From NCBI RefSeq assembly GCF_030813715.1, contig NZ_JAUSUZ010000001.1, forward strand, positions 2,604,001 to 2,668,000: 64,000 bases of DNA, written 5' to 3'. This stretch comes from Catenuloplanes indicus. Lineage in GTDB: Bacteria > Actinomycetota > Actinomycetes > Mycobacteriales > Micromonosporaceae. Positions 1,455-51,725 of the stretch are shown here, piece after piece. The stretch's first letter is position 1; the number at the start of each line of letters is the position of its first letter. The notes beneath the pieces are model-generated. The model was given only the letters and a program-made list of their open reading frames with translations. It did no database searches and had not been told where the DNA came from. The position numbers were made by a program, and so were the translations under genes.

Positions 1455-2834
1455 TCATCTCGTCGCGATCAGATCCACCACGATGAGCAGCGCGACCACG
1501 TCCCACCCTCGCCAGAGCTGCCGCAGCAGGTCGATCGGGAGCAGCCCGAACGGCGTCTCCACGACCGGCCCGTCGTAGACCAGCGACGGCCGGGTGCCCG
1601 AGCGGTACACCGCGCCGCCCACGCCGAGCAGCAGCACCACGGCCAGCCACGGCGGCCGCTCCCCCGCGACCGGCGCGGTGACCATGAAGAACAGTGCGGC
1701 GGCGAGCACCGGCACGGCCAGGTGCGCCACCTTCAGCTCGGTGTCGCCGCCGCCGAGCGCGCGCCGCAGCCCGGGCGACCGGGTGATCGCGCGCAGCCCG
1801 CCGGCCAGCCGGTCCCCGGCCAGGAACGCGGTGAGCACCAGCGCCGGGCCGGCCAGCCCCGGGACCGCGAGCGCGACCGCGTACTGCACCAGCACCAGCG
1901 CGGCCCAGCCGAGCAGCGCGGCCCGCCGCCGGACGGCCCGGCGCAGCTCCGCCTGGGTCAGCGCCCACCAGCGCGGACCGGCCCGGAACCGGCGGCTGCG
2001 CACCCGGCCGAGCGCACGCCAGCGGCGCACCTCCAGCAGGTCCGCGATCAGCGTCGGGTCCAGCATCACCGCGGCCGCGGCGGCGCTGCTCGCGAACTGC
2101 GCGCCGGTCGTGGTGGTGGACCGGTCCAGCCTCCGCAGCGCCCGGATCGCGAGAACCACGGCTGTTCCGGCCACCACGAACACGGGCGGCGAGACGAGCG
2201 GGTGCATCGCGCCGGACGGGCGTGGCAGCGCCGTGCTCAGAAAGTGCAGCGCCACCACCGTGGCCGCGACCAGCGCACCGGCGGCGAGCAACACCCGGCC
2301 CGGCAGCTCCGCCACCCACCGCGCCCGCCGCGCGCCCTGCGCCACCACCGCACCGGCGCCGGCCAGCAGCCCGGTCGCGGCGCCGAGCAGCGGCACATGC
2401 ACGGTGCTCTCGCCGGACAGCGCGCCGAACAGGAACCCGAGCAGCGCCACCGTCGCGGTCGCACCGGCCAGCAGGCCGGCGAACCGGGGCAGCAGCAGCG
2501 CCCGCCGGTCGACCGGCGCGCTCGCCACCCAGGACTGCAGCGCCGGCCCGACGAAGACCGGGCCGAGCGCACGCAGCCCGGCCCAGCCGAACCCGGCCGC
2601 GGTCAGCACCGCCGCGATCACCAGCCACCGCTGCTCGGCCGGGTCACCCGCGTCGACCAGCGTGGACCCGAGGAAGTCGCGGCCCATGTCGACGAACGCC
2701 CAGCCGTAGAGCGCCGCCAGCAGCGCCAGCAGGTAGAGGTCGGTGAGGAAGTCGCCGAACGACGTGCTGTGGTGCCGCCGTCGCAGCCGCCGCATCCGCG
2801 CCCGCACCTCGCGGGCACCGGCCGGACCGCTCAC
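1455..2834 (-). CDS. ABC exporter membrane protein (permease)
   Basis: A 459-residue integral membrane protein with about ten hydrophobic segments in two blocks, separated by a basic cytoplasmic loop near residues 270-310. It is probably the transmembrane partner of the ATPase encoded just upstream (2831-3445). The GTG start at 2834 overlaps the stop of that gene in a GTGA quartet, which implies translational coupling. The sequence resembles actinobacterial ABC-2-like membrane proteins of unknown substrate; no finer family can be assigned by eye. A start further upstream is formally open but would lie inside the ATPase gene. Confidence 0.75.
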   Translation of the reverse strand: MSGPAGAREVRARMRRLRRRHHSTSFGDFLTDLYLLALLAALYGWAFVDMGRDFLGSTLVDAGDPAEQRWLVIAAVLTAAGFGWAGLRALGPVFVGPALQSWVASAPVDRRALLLPRFAGLLAGATATVALLGFLFGALSGESTVHVPLLGAATGLLAGAGAVVAQGARRARWVAELPGRVLLAAGALVAATVVALHFLSTALPRPSGAMHPLVSPPVFVVAGTAVVLAIRALRRLDRSTTTTGAQFASSAAAAAVMLDPTLIADLLEVRRWRALGRVRSRRFRAGPRWWALTQAELRRAVRRRAALLGWAALVLVQYAVALAVPGLAGPALVLTAFLAGDRLAGGLRAITRSPGLRRALGGGDTELKVAHLAVPVLAAALFFMVTAPVAGERPPWLAVVLLLGVGGAVYRSGTRPSLVYDGPVVETPFGLLPIDLLRQLWRGWDVVALLIVVDLIATR

Positions 2835-42440: not shown

Positions 42441-42560
42441 GGTCGCGAAGGGGAGTAGCTCCCAATGTCGTGGTCGACATACTGACGTCGTCTCTCGCAG
42501 ACGGTGTCCGGCCACGCGGCCTCGGTCCTCACCGGCCGGGGCGGGCGAGACCTTCGACTC
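42441..42560 (+). promoter_or_regulatory. yybP-ykoY manganese riboswitch
   Basis: The leader shows the hallmark ends of the yybP-ykoY family: GAAGGGGAGTAGC at 42446-42458 and GCGAGACCTTCG near 42544-42556. GAAGG and CCTTC can close the basal helix. The internal part gtcgacatactgacgtcg has the expected loop character. Members bind Mn2+ and turn on manganese exporters. A following stem pairs GGCTGT (42562-42567) with ACAGCC (42590-42595) and may be part of the expression platform. The regulated gene starts at 42650 and encodes a UPF0016-type transporter, a known target class. Confidence 0.87.
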
Positions 42561-42649
42561 TGGCTGTCGCACGCCTGTGCGCAGGACACACAGCCGGGTC
42601 GAGGTCGCCCGTGCCCTCCGATCCGGCTTGGAAAGACCGGAAGGGCTTC

Positions 42650-43237
42650 ATGGAAGGCTTCGTAGTCGCATTCCTCGTCAGCTTCGGCGTCATCTTCGTC
42701 GCGGAACTGGGCGACAAGTCGCAGCTGATGGCGATGACGTTCGCGCTGCGCTACCGTGCGTGGCCGGTGCTGCTCGGCATCACGATCGCCACCGCGGTGG
42801 TGCACCTGGCCTCCGTCGGCATCGGCTACGGCCTCGGCGCCGCGCTGCCGACCGGCTGGATCGCGCTGATCTCCGGCATCGCGTTCATCTTCTTCGGTGC
42901 CTGGACGCTGCGCGGCGACGCGCTCACCGAGGACGAGAAGACGAAGGCGGAGCGCTCGACCGGTTCCGCGGTGCTGGCGGTCGGCGTCGCGTTCTTCGTC
43001 GCGGAGCTGGGCGACAAGACCATGCTGGCCACGATCACGCTGGCCACCCAGTACGGCTGGTTCGGCACCTGGCTCGGCTCCACGCTGGGTATGGTGGCCG
43101 CGGACGCGCTGGCGATCGTGGTCGGCCGCCTGCTCGGCCGGCACCTGCCGGAGAAGGCCATCAAGATCGGCGCGGCCGTGCTGTTCGCGCTGTTCGGCGT
43201 CTGGATGATCGCGGAGGCGATCGCCGAACTCACCTGA
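42650..43237 (+). CDS. UPF0016/Gdt1-type Mn2+ (Ca2+) exporter
   Basis: A 195-residue membrane protein with six predicted helices in two homologous halves. Each half carries the family motif E-x-G-D-K-(S/T): VAELGDKSQ (E19) and VAELGDKTM (E119). UPF0016 proteins (Gdt1, MneA, Mnx) move Mn2+ or Ca2+ out of the cytoplasm in exchange for protons. The ATG at 42650 is preceded by GGAAGG. The gene lies behind a Mn-sensing riboswitch, so expression should rise with manganese. It is convergent with the glycosyltransferase gene, with a 23-bp gap holding a run of five T. Confidence 0.92.
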   Translation: MEGFVVAFLVSFGVIFVAELGDKSQLMAMTFALRYRAWPVLLGITIATAVVHLASVGIGYGLGAALPTGWIALISGIAFIFFGAWTLRGDALTEDEKTKAERSTGSAVLAVGVAFFVAELGDKTMLATITLATQYGWFGTWLGSTLGMVAADALAIVVGRLLGRHLPEKAIKIGAAVLFALFGVWMIAEAIAELT

Positions 43238-50047: not shown

Positions 50048-51079
50048 TCAGGCCTTGAGGACCGGCTCCTCGGTGCCCTCGGCGGCCTTGCGACGGGCCT
50101 CCTTGCGGTCGTCGGCCGCGGTCTTGATCAGGCTGGCGACGGTGGCGATGACCAGCGTGCCGAGGATGACCACCAGCGACAGCCAGATCGGGATCGTCGG
50201 GGCCCACTCGATGTGCTCGCCGCCGTTGAGGAACGGCAGGTTGTTCTCGTGCAGCGCCTCGAGGATCAGCTTGACGCCGATGAACCCGAGGATGATCGCC
50301 AGGCCCTTGGAGAGGTAGACCAGGCGCTCGATCAGGTTGCCGAGCAGGAAGTACAGCTGGACCAGGCCCATCAGCGCGAACACGTTCGCGGTGAAGACCA
50401 GGTAGGGCTCCTGCGTGATGCCGAAGATCGCCGGGATCGAGTCGAGCGCGAAGATCAGGTCGGTGGTGCCGATCGCGATCATGACGATCAGCATCGGCGT
50501 GAACATCCGCCGGCCGGCGTGCACCGTGGTCAGCCGCGCGCCGTCGAAGCTCGGCGAGATCGGCAGCGCACGGCGGCTCCACCGGATCAGCACGTTCTCC
50601 TTGAAGTCCTCGGCCTCCTCCTCGAGCCCCTCCCGCGCGAAGTTGATCGCGGTGTAGATGAGGAACGCGCCGAAGATGTAGAACACCCAGGAGAACTGCG
50701 TGATCAGCGCGGCGCCGGCGGCGATGAACGCGCCGCGCATCACCAGCGCCAGGATGATGCCGACGAGCAGCACGGTCTGCTGGTACTGCCGGGGCACCGC
50801 GAAGCGGCCCATGATGACCACGAAGACGAACAGGTTGTCCGCGGACAGGCTGTATTCGGTCAGCCAGCCGGTGTAGAACTGCCCGGCGTAGGTGGGACCG
50901 GCGAAGAGCCAGACGCCGACGCCGAAGAGCAGCGCGAGGCCGACGTAGATGCTGACCCAGATCCCGGACTCGCGGGGGGAGGGTTCGTGCGGGCGGCGCC
51001 CGATGATGACGAGGTCGACGATCAGCACGACGGCCATCGCGGCCAGCGTGACGGCCCAGACCCAGGCGGGTACGTTCAA
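50048..51079 (-). CDS. TerC family membrane protein, probable Mn2+ transporter
   Basis: A 343-residue TerC-type protein with about eight membrane helices. It contains LTEYSLSADNLFVFVVIMGRF and ATIGTTDLIFALDSIPAIFG-type motifs, whose Asp residues probably bind a metal. TerC proteins such as MeeF/MeeY of Bacillus export Mn2+, including for metallation of secreted enzymes. The likely start is TTG 51079 with GGAGG six bases upstream. A yybP-ykoY riboswitch precedes it by about 100 bp, strongly supporting a manganese role. The C-terminus is charged and cytoplasmic. Confidence 0.9.
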   Translation of the reverse strand: MNVPAWVWAVTLAAMAVVLIVDLVIIGRRPHEPSPRESGIWVSIYVGLALLFGVGVWLFAGPTYAGQFYTGWLTEYSLSADNLFVFVVIMGRFAVPRQYQQTVLLVGIILALVMRGAFIAAGAALITQFSWVFYIFGAFLIYTAINFAREGLEEEAEDFKENVLIRWSRRALPISPSFDGARLTTVHAGRRMFTPMLIVMIAIGTTDLIFALDSIPAIFGITQEPYLVFTANVFALMGLVQLYFLLGNLIERLVYLSKGLAIILGFIGVKLILEALHENNLPFLNGGEHIEWAPTIPIWLSLVVILGTLVIATVASLIKTAADDRKEARRKAAEGTEEPVLKA

Positions 51080-51181
51080 CGGAATCCTCCGGCAGACACA
51101 GCACTTCGCCGCAGCGGCCTACCCTTACGCGAAGTAAGAAGGTACCCACTCACGGCTACGTGCACTCGTATGTGACTGTCC

Positions 51182-51296
51182 GGAGGTCTCTTCCGCCACG
51201 GCATGACACGATCCGTGACCGACGGCGCCGGGAGTCCACCCGTGTCCGGGTTTTCGCCGTGCTGACGACACCGCCGTAAGGGGAATACTCCCCTCC
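51182..51296 (-). promoter_or_regulatory. yybP-ykoY manganese riboswitch upstream of terC
   Basis: Read on the minus strand, the element begins GGAGGGGAGTATTCCCC (from 51296) and ends GCGGAAGAGACCTCC (to 51182). GGAGG and CCTCC form the basal helix, and the conserved GGGGAGTA and AGACCT segments take their standard places. The middle has GTGTCGTCAGCACGG. It is the second copy of this riboswitch class in the window. About 100 nt separate it from the terC start; the expression platform in that stretch is not resolved by eye. Confidence 0.85.
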
Positions 51297-51431
51297 TTCG
51301 CGCGCAATTGTGCCTCATTCCGGCGACGCCCGGAACGGGACCCCGCAGTGCCGCTCGACACGCTCCTTGCCCGCGGCGCCTAGTTCTTCCTAGGAGGCTA
51401 GGTGAATTCCCTCCGTGCGAGACTGCCGGAC

Positions 51432-51725
51432 ATGGTTCTTGAGGTTGCGTTGATCGACGTGGTGCCGGGTCACGAGGACGAGTTCGCGGCGGCGTACGCG
51501 AAAGGGCACCCGATCCTGGCCGGCACGCCCGGCTGCCGCTCGGTGCGGATGACCCGCGGCATCGAGACGCCGGACCGGTTCGTCCTGCTCGTCGAGTGGG
51601 ACTCGGTGGCCGCACACGAGGAGAACTTCCGGGCCACCGAGCGCTTCGCCCAGTGGCGCGCGCTGATCGGCCCGTTCTTCGCCGGCCCGCCGCGGGTCGA
51701 GCACTTCACCGACGTCCCCGCCTGA
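51432..51725 (+). CDS. ABM-domain (antibiotic biosynthesis monooxygenase-like) protein
   Basis: A 97-residue ferredoxin-like alpha/beta barrel subunit: VLEVALIDVVPGHEDEFAAAY, then PGCRSVRMTRGIETPDRFVLLVEWDS, then HEENFRATERFAQWRALIGPF. Members include small quinone-forming monooxygenases and heme-degrading enzymes, and many have unknown function. ATG 51432 fits the family start. A GTG at 51402 has a perfect AGGAGG only four bases away and would add ten residues, so that start is possible. The gene stands alone. Confidence 0.82.
   Translation: MVLEVALIDVVPGHEDEFAAAYAKGHPILAGTPGCRSVRMTRGIETPDRFVLLVEWDSVAAHEENFRATERFAQWRALIGPFFAGPPRVEHFTDVPA

Follow-up and report, generated by a model that had tools for sequence, protein, structure and literature searches.

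The yybP-ykoY motif is counted among those present in more than 75% of the taxonomic groups surveyed in one study (PMC3766115). In the Mn2+ riboswitches of L. lactis and X. oryzae, the metal is contacted by N7 of an adenosine (A41 and A48, respectively), and Mn2+ binding is described as stabilising helix P1.1 in X. oryzae (PMC6754395). In E. coli, alx and mntP are presented as Mn-responsive members of the family (PMC9603457), and the alx gene is annotated as encoding the Mn2+ exporter Alx. For actinobacteria, the leader of C. glutamicum terC (cg2157) is listed as yybP-ykoY with 49 bits under a 2013 Rfam model, and a transcript start was seen there by RNA-seq (PMC3890552). In V. parahaemolyticus, mneA (VP0023, TMEM165 family) and terC (VPA0856) are each reported to be under a yybP-ykoY element, and both are Mn-induced (PMC13274385).

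The locus characterized here is the leader of a terC gene of Catenuloplanes indicus, contained in a stretch of 64,000 nt (the window) of a 9.2-Mb assembly in two contigs; Catenuloplanes japonicus is the nearest relative among the named genomes searched, with 91% identity over terC. The leader shares the docking loops L1 and L3 and the invariant adenosine with the L. lactis and X. oryzae riboswitches, but the crystal structures of the latter are described as four-way junctions (PMC6754395), whereas the form in the window lacks the arm P2. The likeness to E. coli alx comprises P1.1, the L1 motif GGAGTA, P1.2, P3.1, an L3 of TCGTCATTAC with CGG, P4 and the absence of P2, the differences being the lower GC content and longer P4 of alx, for which, moreover, a pH response is known (PMC9603457). 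The C. glutamicum leader, which can be likened by its description, also belongs to an actinobacterial terC gene, whereas the window's form is missed by Rfam 15. V. parahaemolyticus shares the placement of both transporter families under a single riboswitch class but belongs to another phylum and has two such genes versus six copies here; because that arrangement has been published, it is not new. What is new is the form that the Mn2+ riboswitch takes in actinobacteria, which is largely missed by Rfam 15, the set of six copies and the association with a Gre-like factor. The terC leader is very probably a yybP-ykoY (Mn2+) riboswitch that switches translation on, and one of six in its genome.

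Architecture of the terC leader

The original prediction held that the terC leader carries the same hallmark ends as a second leader in the window. Both ends were located on the minus strand in the 220 nt upstream of terC, GGGGAGTA at 51293-51286 and GAGACCTCC at 51190-51182. When the element is read as RNA (Table 1), L1 is formed by GGAGUA with GAGA, P1.2 by UUCC with GGAA, and L3 by UCGUCAGCAC with CGG. The loops typical of the family are thus present, namely L1 GGGGAGUA with GAGACC on its 3' side and an L3 that carries the invariant adenosine; the A at 51263 is the counterpart of A41 and A48, and all 95 aligned matches share this L3 adenosine.

Three alignments were used for the analysis of base pairing: A1, with 38 terC leaders (37 retained from 65 locus sequences, and that of the window), A2, with 27 of 30 GDT1 loci, and A3, with 95 class-wide matches obtained when the covariance model R1 (see below) was run on 94 sources with similar ones excluded. 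Changes on both sides were found for 11 of 26 pairs in A1 (5.2 in shuffles) and for 14 of 27 pairs in A2 (5.5 in shuffles), in each case with 0 of 500 shuffles reaching the count, the structures of A1 and A2 having been derived from the same sequences that were then counted. When the partners in A1 were slid by one to three columns, the fraction of paired cells fell from 93.7% to 36.6-64.3%. In A3, two-sided changes affected 22 of 26 pairs, a count that 0 of 500 shuffles reached, and 95.4% of the cells paired, in an alignment that was fitted to the structure and thus leans towards it. Conservation in A3 is also somewhat favoured, because its matches were picked by R1. The GGAGG/CCUCC pairing of P1.1 is present and invariant in all 38 sequences of A1, the pairs of P1.2 exchange among UA, CG and GC across the class (A3), and two-sided changes affect six of the seven P3.1 pairs in A1 and all seven in A3.

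According to the pair counts, the legs P1.1/L1/P1.2 and P3.1/L3/P3.2 meet at a junction with P4, and their docking is predicted. The crystallised members have a four-way junction with P2, which is absent from all 95 aligned matches: P1.2 and P3.1 are joined by a linker of only 4 to 8 nt in 94 matches and of 10 nt in the remaining one. P2 was not treated as defining because the E. coli alx leader also reads without it, and for the same reason the possibility of a new junction type was rejected.

A hexamer like the possible -10 box CACAAT precedes all 14 other terC elements that were inspected by eye; a scan for sigma-70-type promoters in 51050-51450 found none. Farther upstream, a palindrome-like CCTAGCCTCCTAGG motif is located at 51389-51402 (minus strand), and the same or a similar motif also precedes terC in relatives without the switch; it may serve the divergent gene as promoter or operator.

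Table 1. Positions of the features in the window, of further copies in the genome (G000) and of elements in the loci of relatives
Feature	Position	Strand	Evidence or remark
terC, TerC family membrane protein, 343 aa, TTG start at 51079	50048..51079	-	PF03741 E 3e-51
Predicted yybP-ykoY-type Mn2+ aptamer, three-way junction form without P2	51181..51299	-	R1, R2, covariation
Possible -10 box CACAAT, 7 nt upstream of aptamer	51307..51312	-	inferred
P1.1 5' strand GGAGG, Shine-Dalgarno look-alike	51292..51296	-	pairs with 51182-51186
L1 5' strand GGAGTA	51286..51291	-	each position identical in 94 or 95 of 95
P1.2 5' strand TTCC	51282..51285	-	pairs with GGAA 51191-51194
P3.1 5' strand, 7 pairs	51269..51275	-	pair counts
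L3 5' strand TCGTCAGCAC	51259..51268	-	both letters of CA conserved in all 95 matches
P3.2 and variable hairpin	51231..51258	-	alignment A1; GG/CC pairs at base
L3 3' strand CGG	51228..51230	-	92 to 95 of 95 identical per position
P3.1 3' strand	51221..51227	-	pair counts in A1
P4 hairpin	51195..51219	-	two-sided changes in 5 of 8 pairs in A1, 8 of 8 in A3
L1 3' strand GAGA and P1.1 3' strand CCTCC	51182..51190	-	pair counts, conservation
CCTCCGG, anti-Shine-Dalgarno strand, overlaps P1.1 3' strand	51180..51186	-	minimum-energy fold, shuffle test
CCGGAGG, Shine-Dalgarno region of terC	51086..51092	-	sequence
Second predicted aptamer, upstream of GDT1/UPF0016 gene	42444..42556	+	R1 58.7 bits, E 5.9e-10 (not in R1); covariation A2
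GDT1 family divalent cation/proton antiporter gene (UPF0016/TMEM165)	42650..43237	+	PF01169 E 1.9e-44
Copy L217, ahead of TerC gene	G000:C1:343500-343603	+	R2
Copy L218, ahead of TerC gene	G000:C1:7816068-7816175	+	R2
Copy L220, ahead of TerC gene	G000:C1:6052290-6052391	-	R2
Copy L219, orphan	G000:C1:1993624-1993724	-	R2
Switch ahead of gre, no terC between	L223 2022-2128	-	R2
Switch ahead of gre, no terC between	L224 2060-2164	-	R2
Switch ahead of gre, no terC between	L225 1249-1366	+	R2
Switch ahead of gre, no terC between	L228 1049-1152	+	R2
Switch ahead of gre, no terC between	L229 1053-1149	+	R2
Order switch-terC-gre	L227 3111-3215	-	R2
Order switch-terC-gre	L231 3017-3111	-	R2
terC loci without aptamer (Micromonospora/Verrucosispora)	L010, L037, L046, L047, L050, L054, L060, L061, L063, L064, L065, L068, L069

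Assignment to the yybP-ykoY family

At the gathering threshold, Rfam 15 gave no match for either leader in the window; with E-values up to 10, it gave no yybP-ykoY match on the two leaders, and RF00080 found nothing on the whole genome. The leaders therefore stay below the RF00080 gathering score. It should be noted that in a control with two E. coli loci RF00080 scored mntP at 41.6 bits, with the cut-off at 45, and missed alx at E 0.01; because these known members fail as well, the silence of Rfam is read as low sensitivity and not as exclusion.

Two models built from relatives behaved differently. R1 was made from 38 terC leaders only and R2 is a broader model; the E-values of both are rough. 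R1 scored the terC aptamer with 99.1 bits (E 1.6e-18) and R2 with E 1.2e-18, this aptamer being included in both models. The terC and GDT1 leaders were the sole two matches of R1 in the window at E 1e-5, and R1 also recovered all six GDT1 leaders supplied to it (E 5e-11 to 8e-9), none of which is in the model. It placed E. coli alx correctly (E 0.0028 over 28 kb); mntP was not found by R1 at E up to 1. With R2, alx (E 2.6e-9) and mntP (E 1e-4), both outside the model, were recognised, the next best match in 71 kb having E 0.096. Models built from these sequences thus also recognise known members of the family, alx with R1 and R2 and mntP with R2. The covariance-model check that had been proposed for the terC leader accordingly fails with Rfam 15, whereas the leader does score as a riboswitch with models from relatives. 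In addition, the aptamers precede genes of the TerC and GDT1 families of Mn2+ transport or metalation, an assignment by family in which the metal role of the proteins is predicted. Judged from the sequence, the terC leader is almost certainly a Mn2+-sensing switch of the yybP-ykoY family.

The second leader, ahead of GDT1

The two aptamers in the window are 8.6 kb apart. That the GDT1 and terC leaders are two copies of the same class, as originally predicted, is borne out by the detection of the former at E 5.9e-10 with R1, which was built from terC leaders alone, and two transporter families, TerC (PF03741) and GDT1 (PF01169), are indeed found under one riboswitch class. The proposal that the aptamers have different internal arms holds for the sequences; the topology is the same. 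The distinct thresholds or kinetics that had been suggested for the two copies gained no support. Their L3 loops do differ, UCAGCAC at terC and ACAUACU at GDT1, but similar loops of both kinds are present in the solved Mn2+-bound structures, UCA41AUUC in L. lactis and ACA48UACU in X. oryzae (PMC6754395). A P2 hairpin considered for the GDT1 leader was rejected, as relatives show that the letters in question are P3.1 and L3. The element was found in all 30 GDT1 loci examined, in 27 by pattern, in L102 by R1 and in L094 and L095 by R2.

The region following the GDT1 aptamer differs from that of terC in that the P1 3' strand GACCTTCGAC can form a hairpin with a downstream GTCGAGGTC (42549-42600 and beyond, plus strand); the long GACCTTCGAC/GTCGAGGTC hairpin is present in relatives, too.

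The distance between the terC and GDT1 leaders is about 12 kb in another genome of the genus (G006) and 1.1 Mb in G045; in G003 they are 5.3 Mb apart along the contig, or about 1.7 Mb the shorter way if it is circular. A conserved neighbourhood was rejected on the basis of the large distances in G003 and G045, and the common neighbourhood noted in the original prediction is probably incidental.

Copies in the genome and in relatives

The search of the genome with R2 yielded six matches at E 4.4e-8 or better, the next having E 2. TerC-family genes follow four of them and GDT1 a fifth, and the sixth is an orphan, so that the small regulon that had been suggested is a regulon, but a larger one than claimed. 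Taken together, the original observation is confirmed and its interpretation is partly supported. TerC is represented in the genome by six full-length matches and a partial one. A switch precedes four of the six; upstream of the other two full-length genes there was no R2 match better than E 0.2. The region downstream of the orphan, compared with three of the TerC proteins of the genome, gave no credible match (best E 0.35). Compact anti-Shine-Dalgarno hairpins were seen by eye in the three additional TerC copies (L217, L218, L220).

Among 80 homologous terC loci, 65 bear the element within 450 nt upstream, as judged by a letter pattern. The 15 others comprise 13 loci of Micromonospora/Verrucosispora, one of Isoptericola (L077) and one of Serinicoccus (L079). 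In L077, R2 detected an element at 1851-1961 (plus strand, E 5.4e-14) about 1 kb upstream of the matched terC gene; by eye, it apparently precedes a second, tandem terC gene. On the other 14 loci, R2 gave no match below E 0.019 within the stretches searched. The 13 Micromonospora/Verrucosispora loci have a GGAGG-like Shine-Dalgarno motif before terC and no aptamer, and it looks as if the switch has been lost in some lineages of this group.

At E 1e-5, 37 of 39 genomes of the family carry one to six copies, and copies are present in 12 of 41 genomes spread over the phylum, that of the window included. With stricter filters, the R1 element was found in 157 of 296 genomes of the class (E 0.01), and RF00080 had a match in 11, none of them above the cut-off. 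All these are undercounts, because whole-genome searches score limited candidates: the R1 genome search missed the GDT1 leader of the window, yet R1 scores the same leader well when applied to it directly.

Genes downstream of the element

Among the best class matches, the 30 loci obtained (29 and that of the window) all have the element ahead of TerC genes. A further 60 matches, which were picked to include second copies and weak ones, precede TerC in 49 cases, GDT1 in two and something else in eight, and one is on a stretch that is too short. Three of the eight exceptions are followed by a gene whose product has the GreA/GreB C-terminal domain (PF01272), L170 precedes a PGPGW membrane protein (PF09656), and L165 and L192 precede proteins of about 300 aa that are similar to one another by eye, the one that was scanned having no Pfam match. 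L215 is followed by a long frame in which Pfam recognised nothing over the first 251 aa, and one match has no clear downstream gene.

A search with one of the Gre-like proteins led to 21 loci, and R2 detected a switch (E 1e-8 or better) in seven, all of which are among the ten loci with at least 44% identity. In five of these seven there is no terC between switch and gre, and two have the order switch-terC-gre (Table 1); two of the other three close loci have terC upstream. Gre-like loci behind a switch occur in several actinobacterial families, and PF01272 was found in the three proteins that were scanned. The independent support for the link is smaller than seven loci, because three of them had prompted the question. 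In the genome of the window, no Gre-like protein was found at E 1e-6, and a literature search for riboswitch and Gre factor together returned only papers unrelated by title.

The predicted expression platform

The 3' strand of P1.1 has two potential partners. CCUCCGG (51186-51180) is complementary to CCGGAGG (51092-51086), about 90 nt downstream in the Shine-Dalgarno region of terC. In the free leader, the fold of lowest energy (-113.9 kcal/mol) has the Shine-Dalgarno motif hidden; when the aptamer is enforced (-96.3 kcal/mol), GGAGG leaves CCUCC. The gap of 17.6 kcal/mol omits Mn2+, tertiary docking and co-transcriptional folding and is not a working balance. In the aptamer-enforced fold the Shine-Dalgarno motif is partly free: its GGA is contained in a 3-bp hairpin with UCC (pair probabilities of 0.94, 0.94 and 0.61), and the last two G are mostly free (0.27 and 0.28). 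In the minimum-energy fold, moreover, L1 and the greater part of the P1 5' strand are masked by a hairpin that the 5' strand forms with itself, GAGGGGA(GUAU)UCCCCUU (51278-51295, minus strand).

The complementarity is also found in relatives. The mean stem between the anti-Shine-Dalgarno strand and its own Shine-Dalgarno region was 6.54, versus 5.67 with shuffled partners, and 0 of 2000 shuffles reached this value; the test covered 48 non-redundant leaders out of 70 (80% identity filter), and the shuffling ignores relatedness. The stem was at least 6 in 32 of the 48 leaders and shorter than 6 in 16, and some of the short stems perhaps result from misplaced starts. Both strands have changed together to CCUCCA/UGGAGG in L173, L183 and L203, to CCUUCG/CGAAGG in L125, L190 and L205, to CCUUCC/GGAAGG in L171 and to CCUUGU/ACAAGG in L162; L204, with CCUCCA and without the partner, is an exception.

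Discussion

The proposed mechanism is that without Mn2+ the P1.1 3' strand CCUCCGG would pair with CCGGAGG and mask the Shine-Dalgarno motif of terC. Mn2+ bound between L1 and L3 would stabilise P1.1 (GGAGG with CCUCC), and the occupation of CCUCC by P1.1 would release the Shine-Dalgarno motif, so that TerC, with a presumed role in Mn2+ export or metalation, would be made under Mn2+ excess. As P1.1 and the anti-Shine-Dalgarno helix share one strand and P1.1 is stabilised by Mn2+ in X. oryzae, the ribosome site should open upon binding.

The same aptamer could instead act mainly on transcription, with an alternative helix that favours early termination, either intrinsic or by Rho. There are precedents, as the L. 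lactis and X. oryzae riboswitches are described as working by antitermination with P1.1 competing against a terminator (PMC6754395, PMC11087558) and Rho has been studied with the mntP riboswitch (PMC11647493). In the leaders compared, however, it is with the Shine-Dalgarno region that the P1.1 3' strand keeps its complementarity, and a scan for terminator-like sites in 51050-51450 found none, so that control at this level appears unlikely. A variant aptamer tuned to a different divalent metal, or additionally to pH, is likewise improbable. Variants of yybP whose metal specificity has changed are anticipated in a review (PMC7266159), alx is reported to respond to alkaline pH besides Mn (PMC9603457), and the terC leader is like alx in its L3, in the absence of P2 and in the family of its target gene. 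But the window shows no change in L1 or in the discriminator adenosine, and across the 95 aligned matches their conservation is complete or nearly so; no alteration of the binding site therefore points to another metal. The notion of a conserved leader that does not sense metal at all, for example a structure that binds ribosomes or a protein, could draw on the lack of an Rfam match; it is very hard to reconcile with models that recover known Mn2+ riboswitches and with the position of five of the six genomic copies ahead of TerC or GDT1 genes, both Mn-linked families. The translational ON switch for Mn2+ is thus the reading that is preferred for the terC leader.

One function of the switch might be to run a programme against Mn overload that is broader than efflux and comprises TerC paralogs, GDT1 and, in some lineages, a GreA/GreB-like factor of the RNA polymerase secondary channel. 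This proposal is tentative and is regarded as somewhat doubtful. Gfh1, a related factor, is affected by Mn2+. If the proposal is true, Mn2+ excess would alter the behaviour of RNA polymerase besides metal handling.

With the R1 element in 157 and an RF00080 match in 11 of 296 genomes, Mn2+ control in actinomycetes looks under-annotated, and six copies in a single genome, of which four precede TerC genes, are a natural set for asking about tuning of one class to different Mn2+ levels, as the original prediction did.
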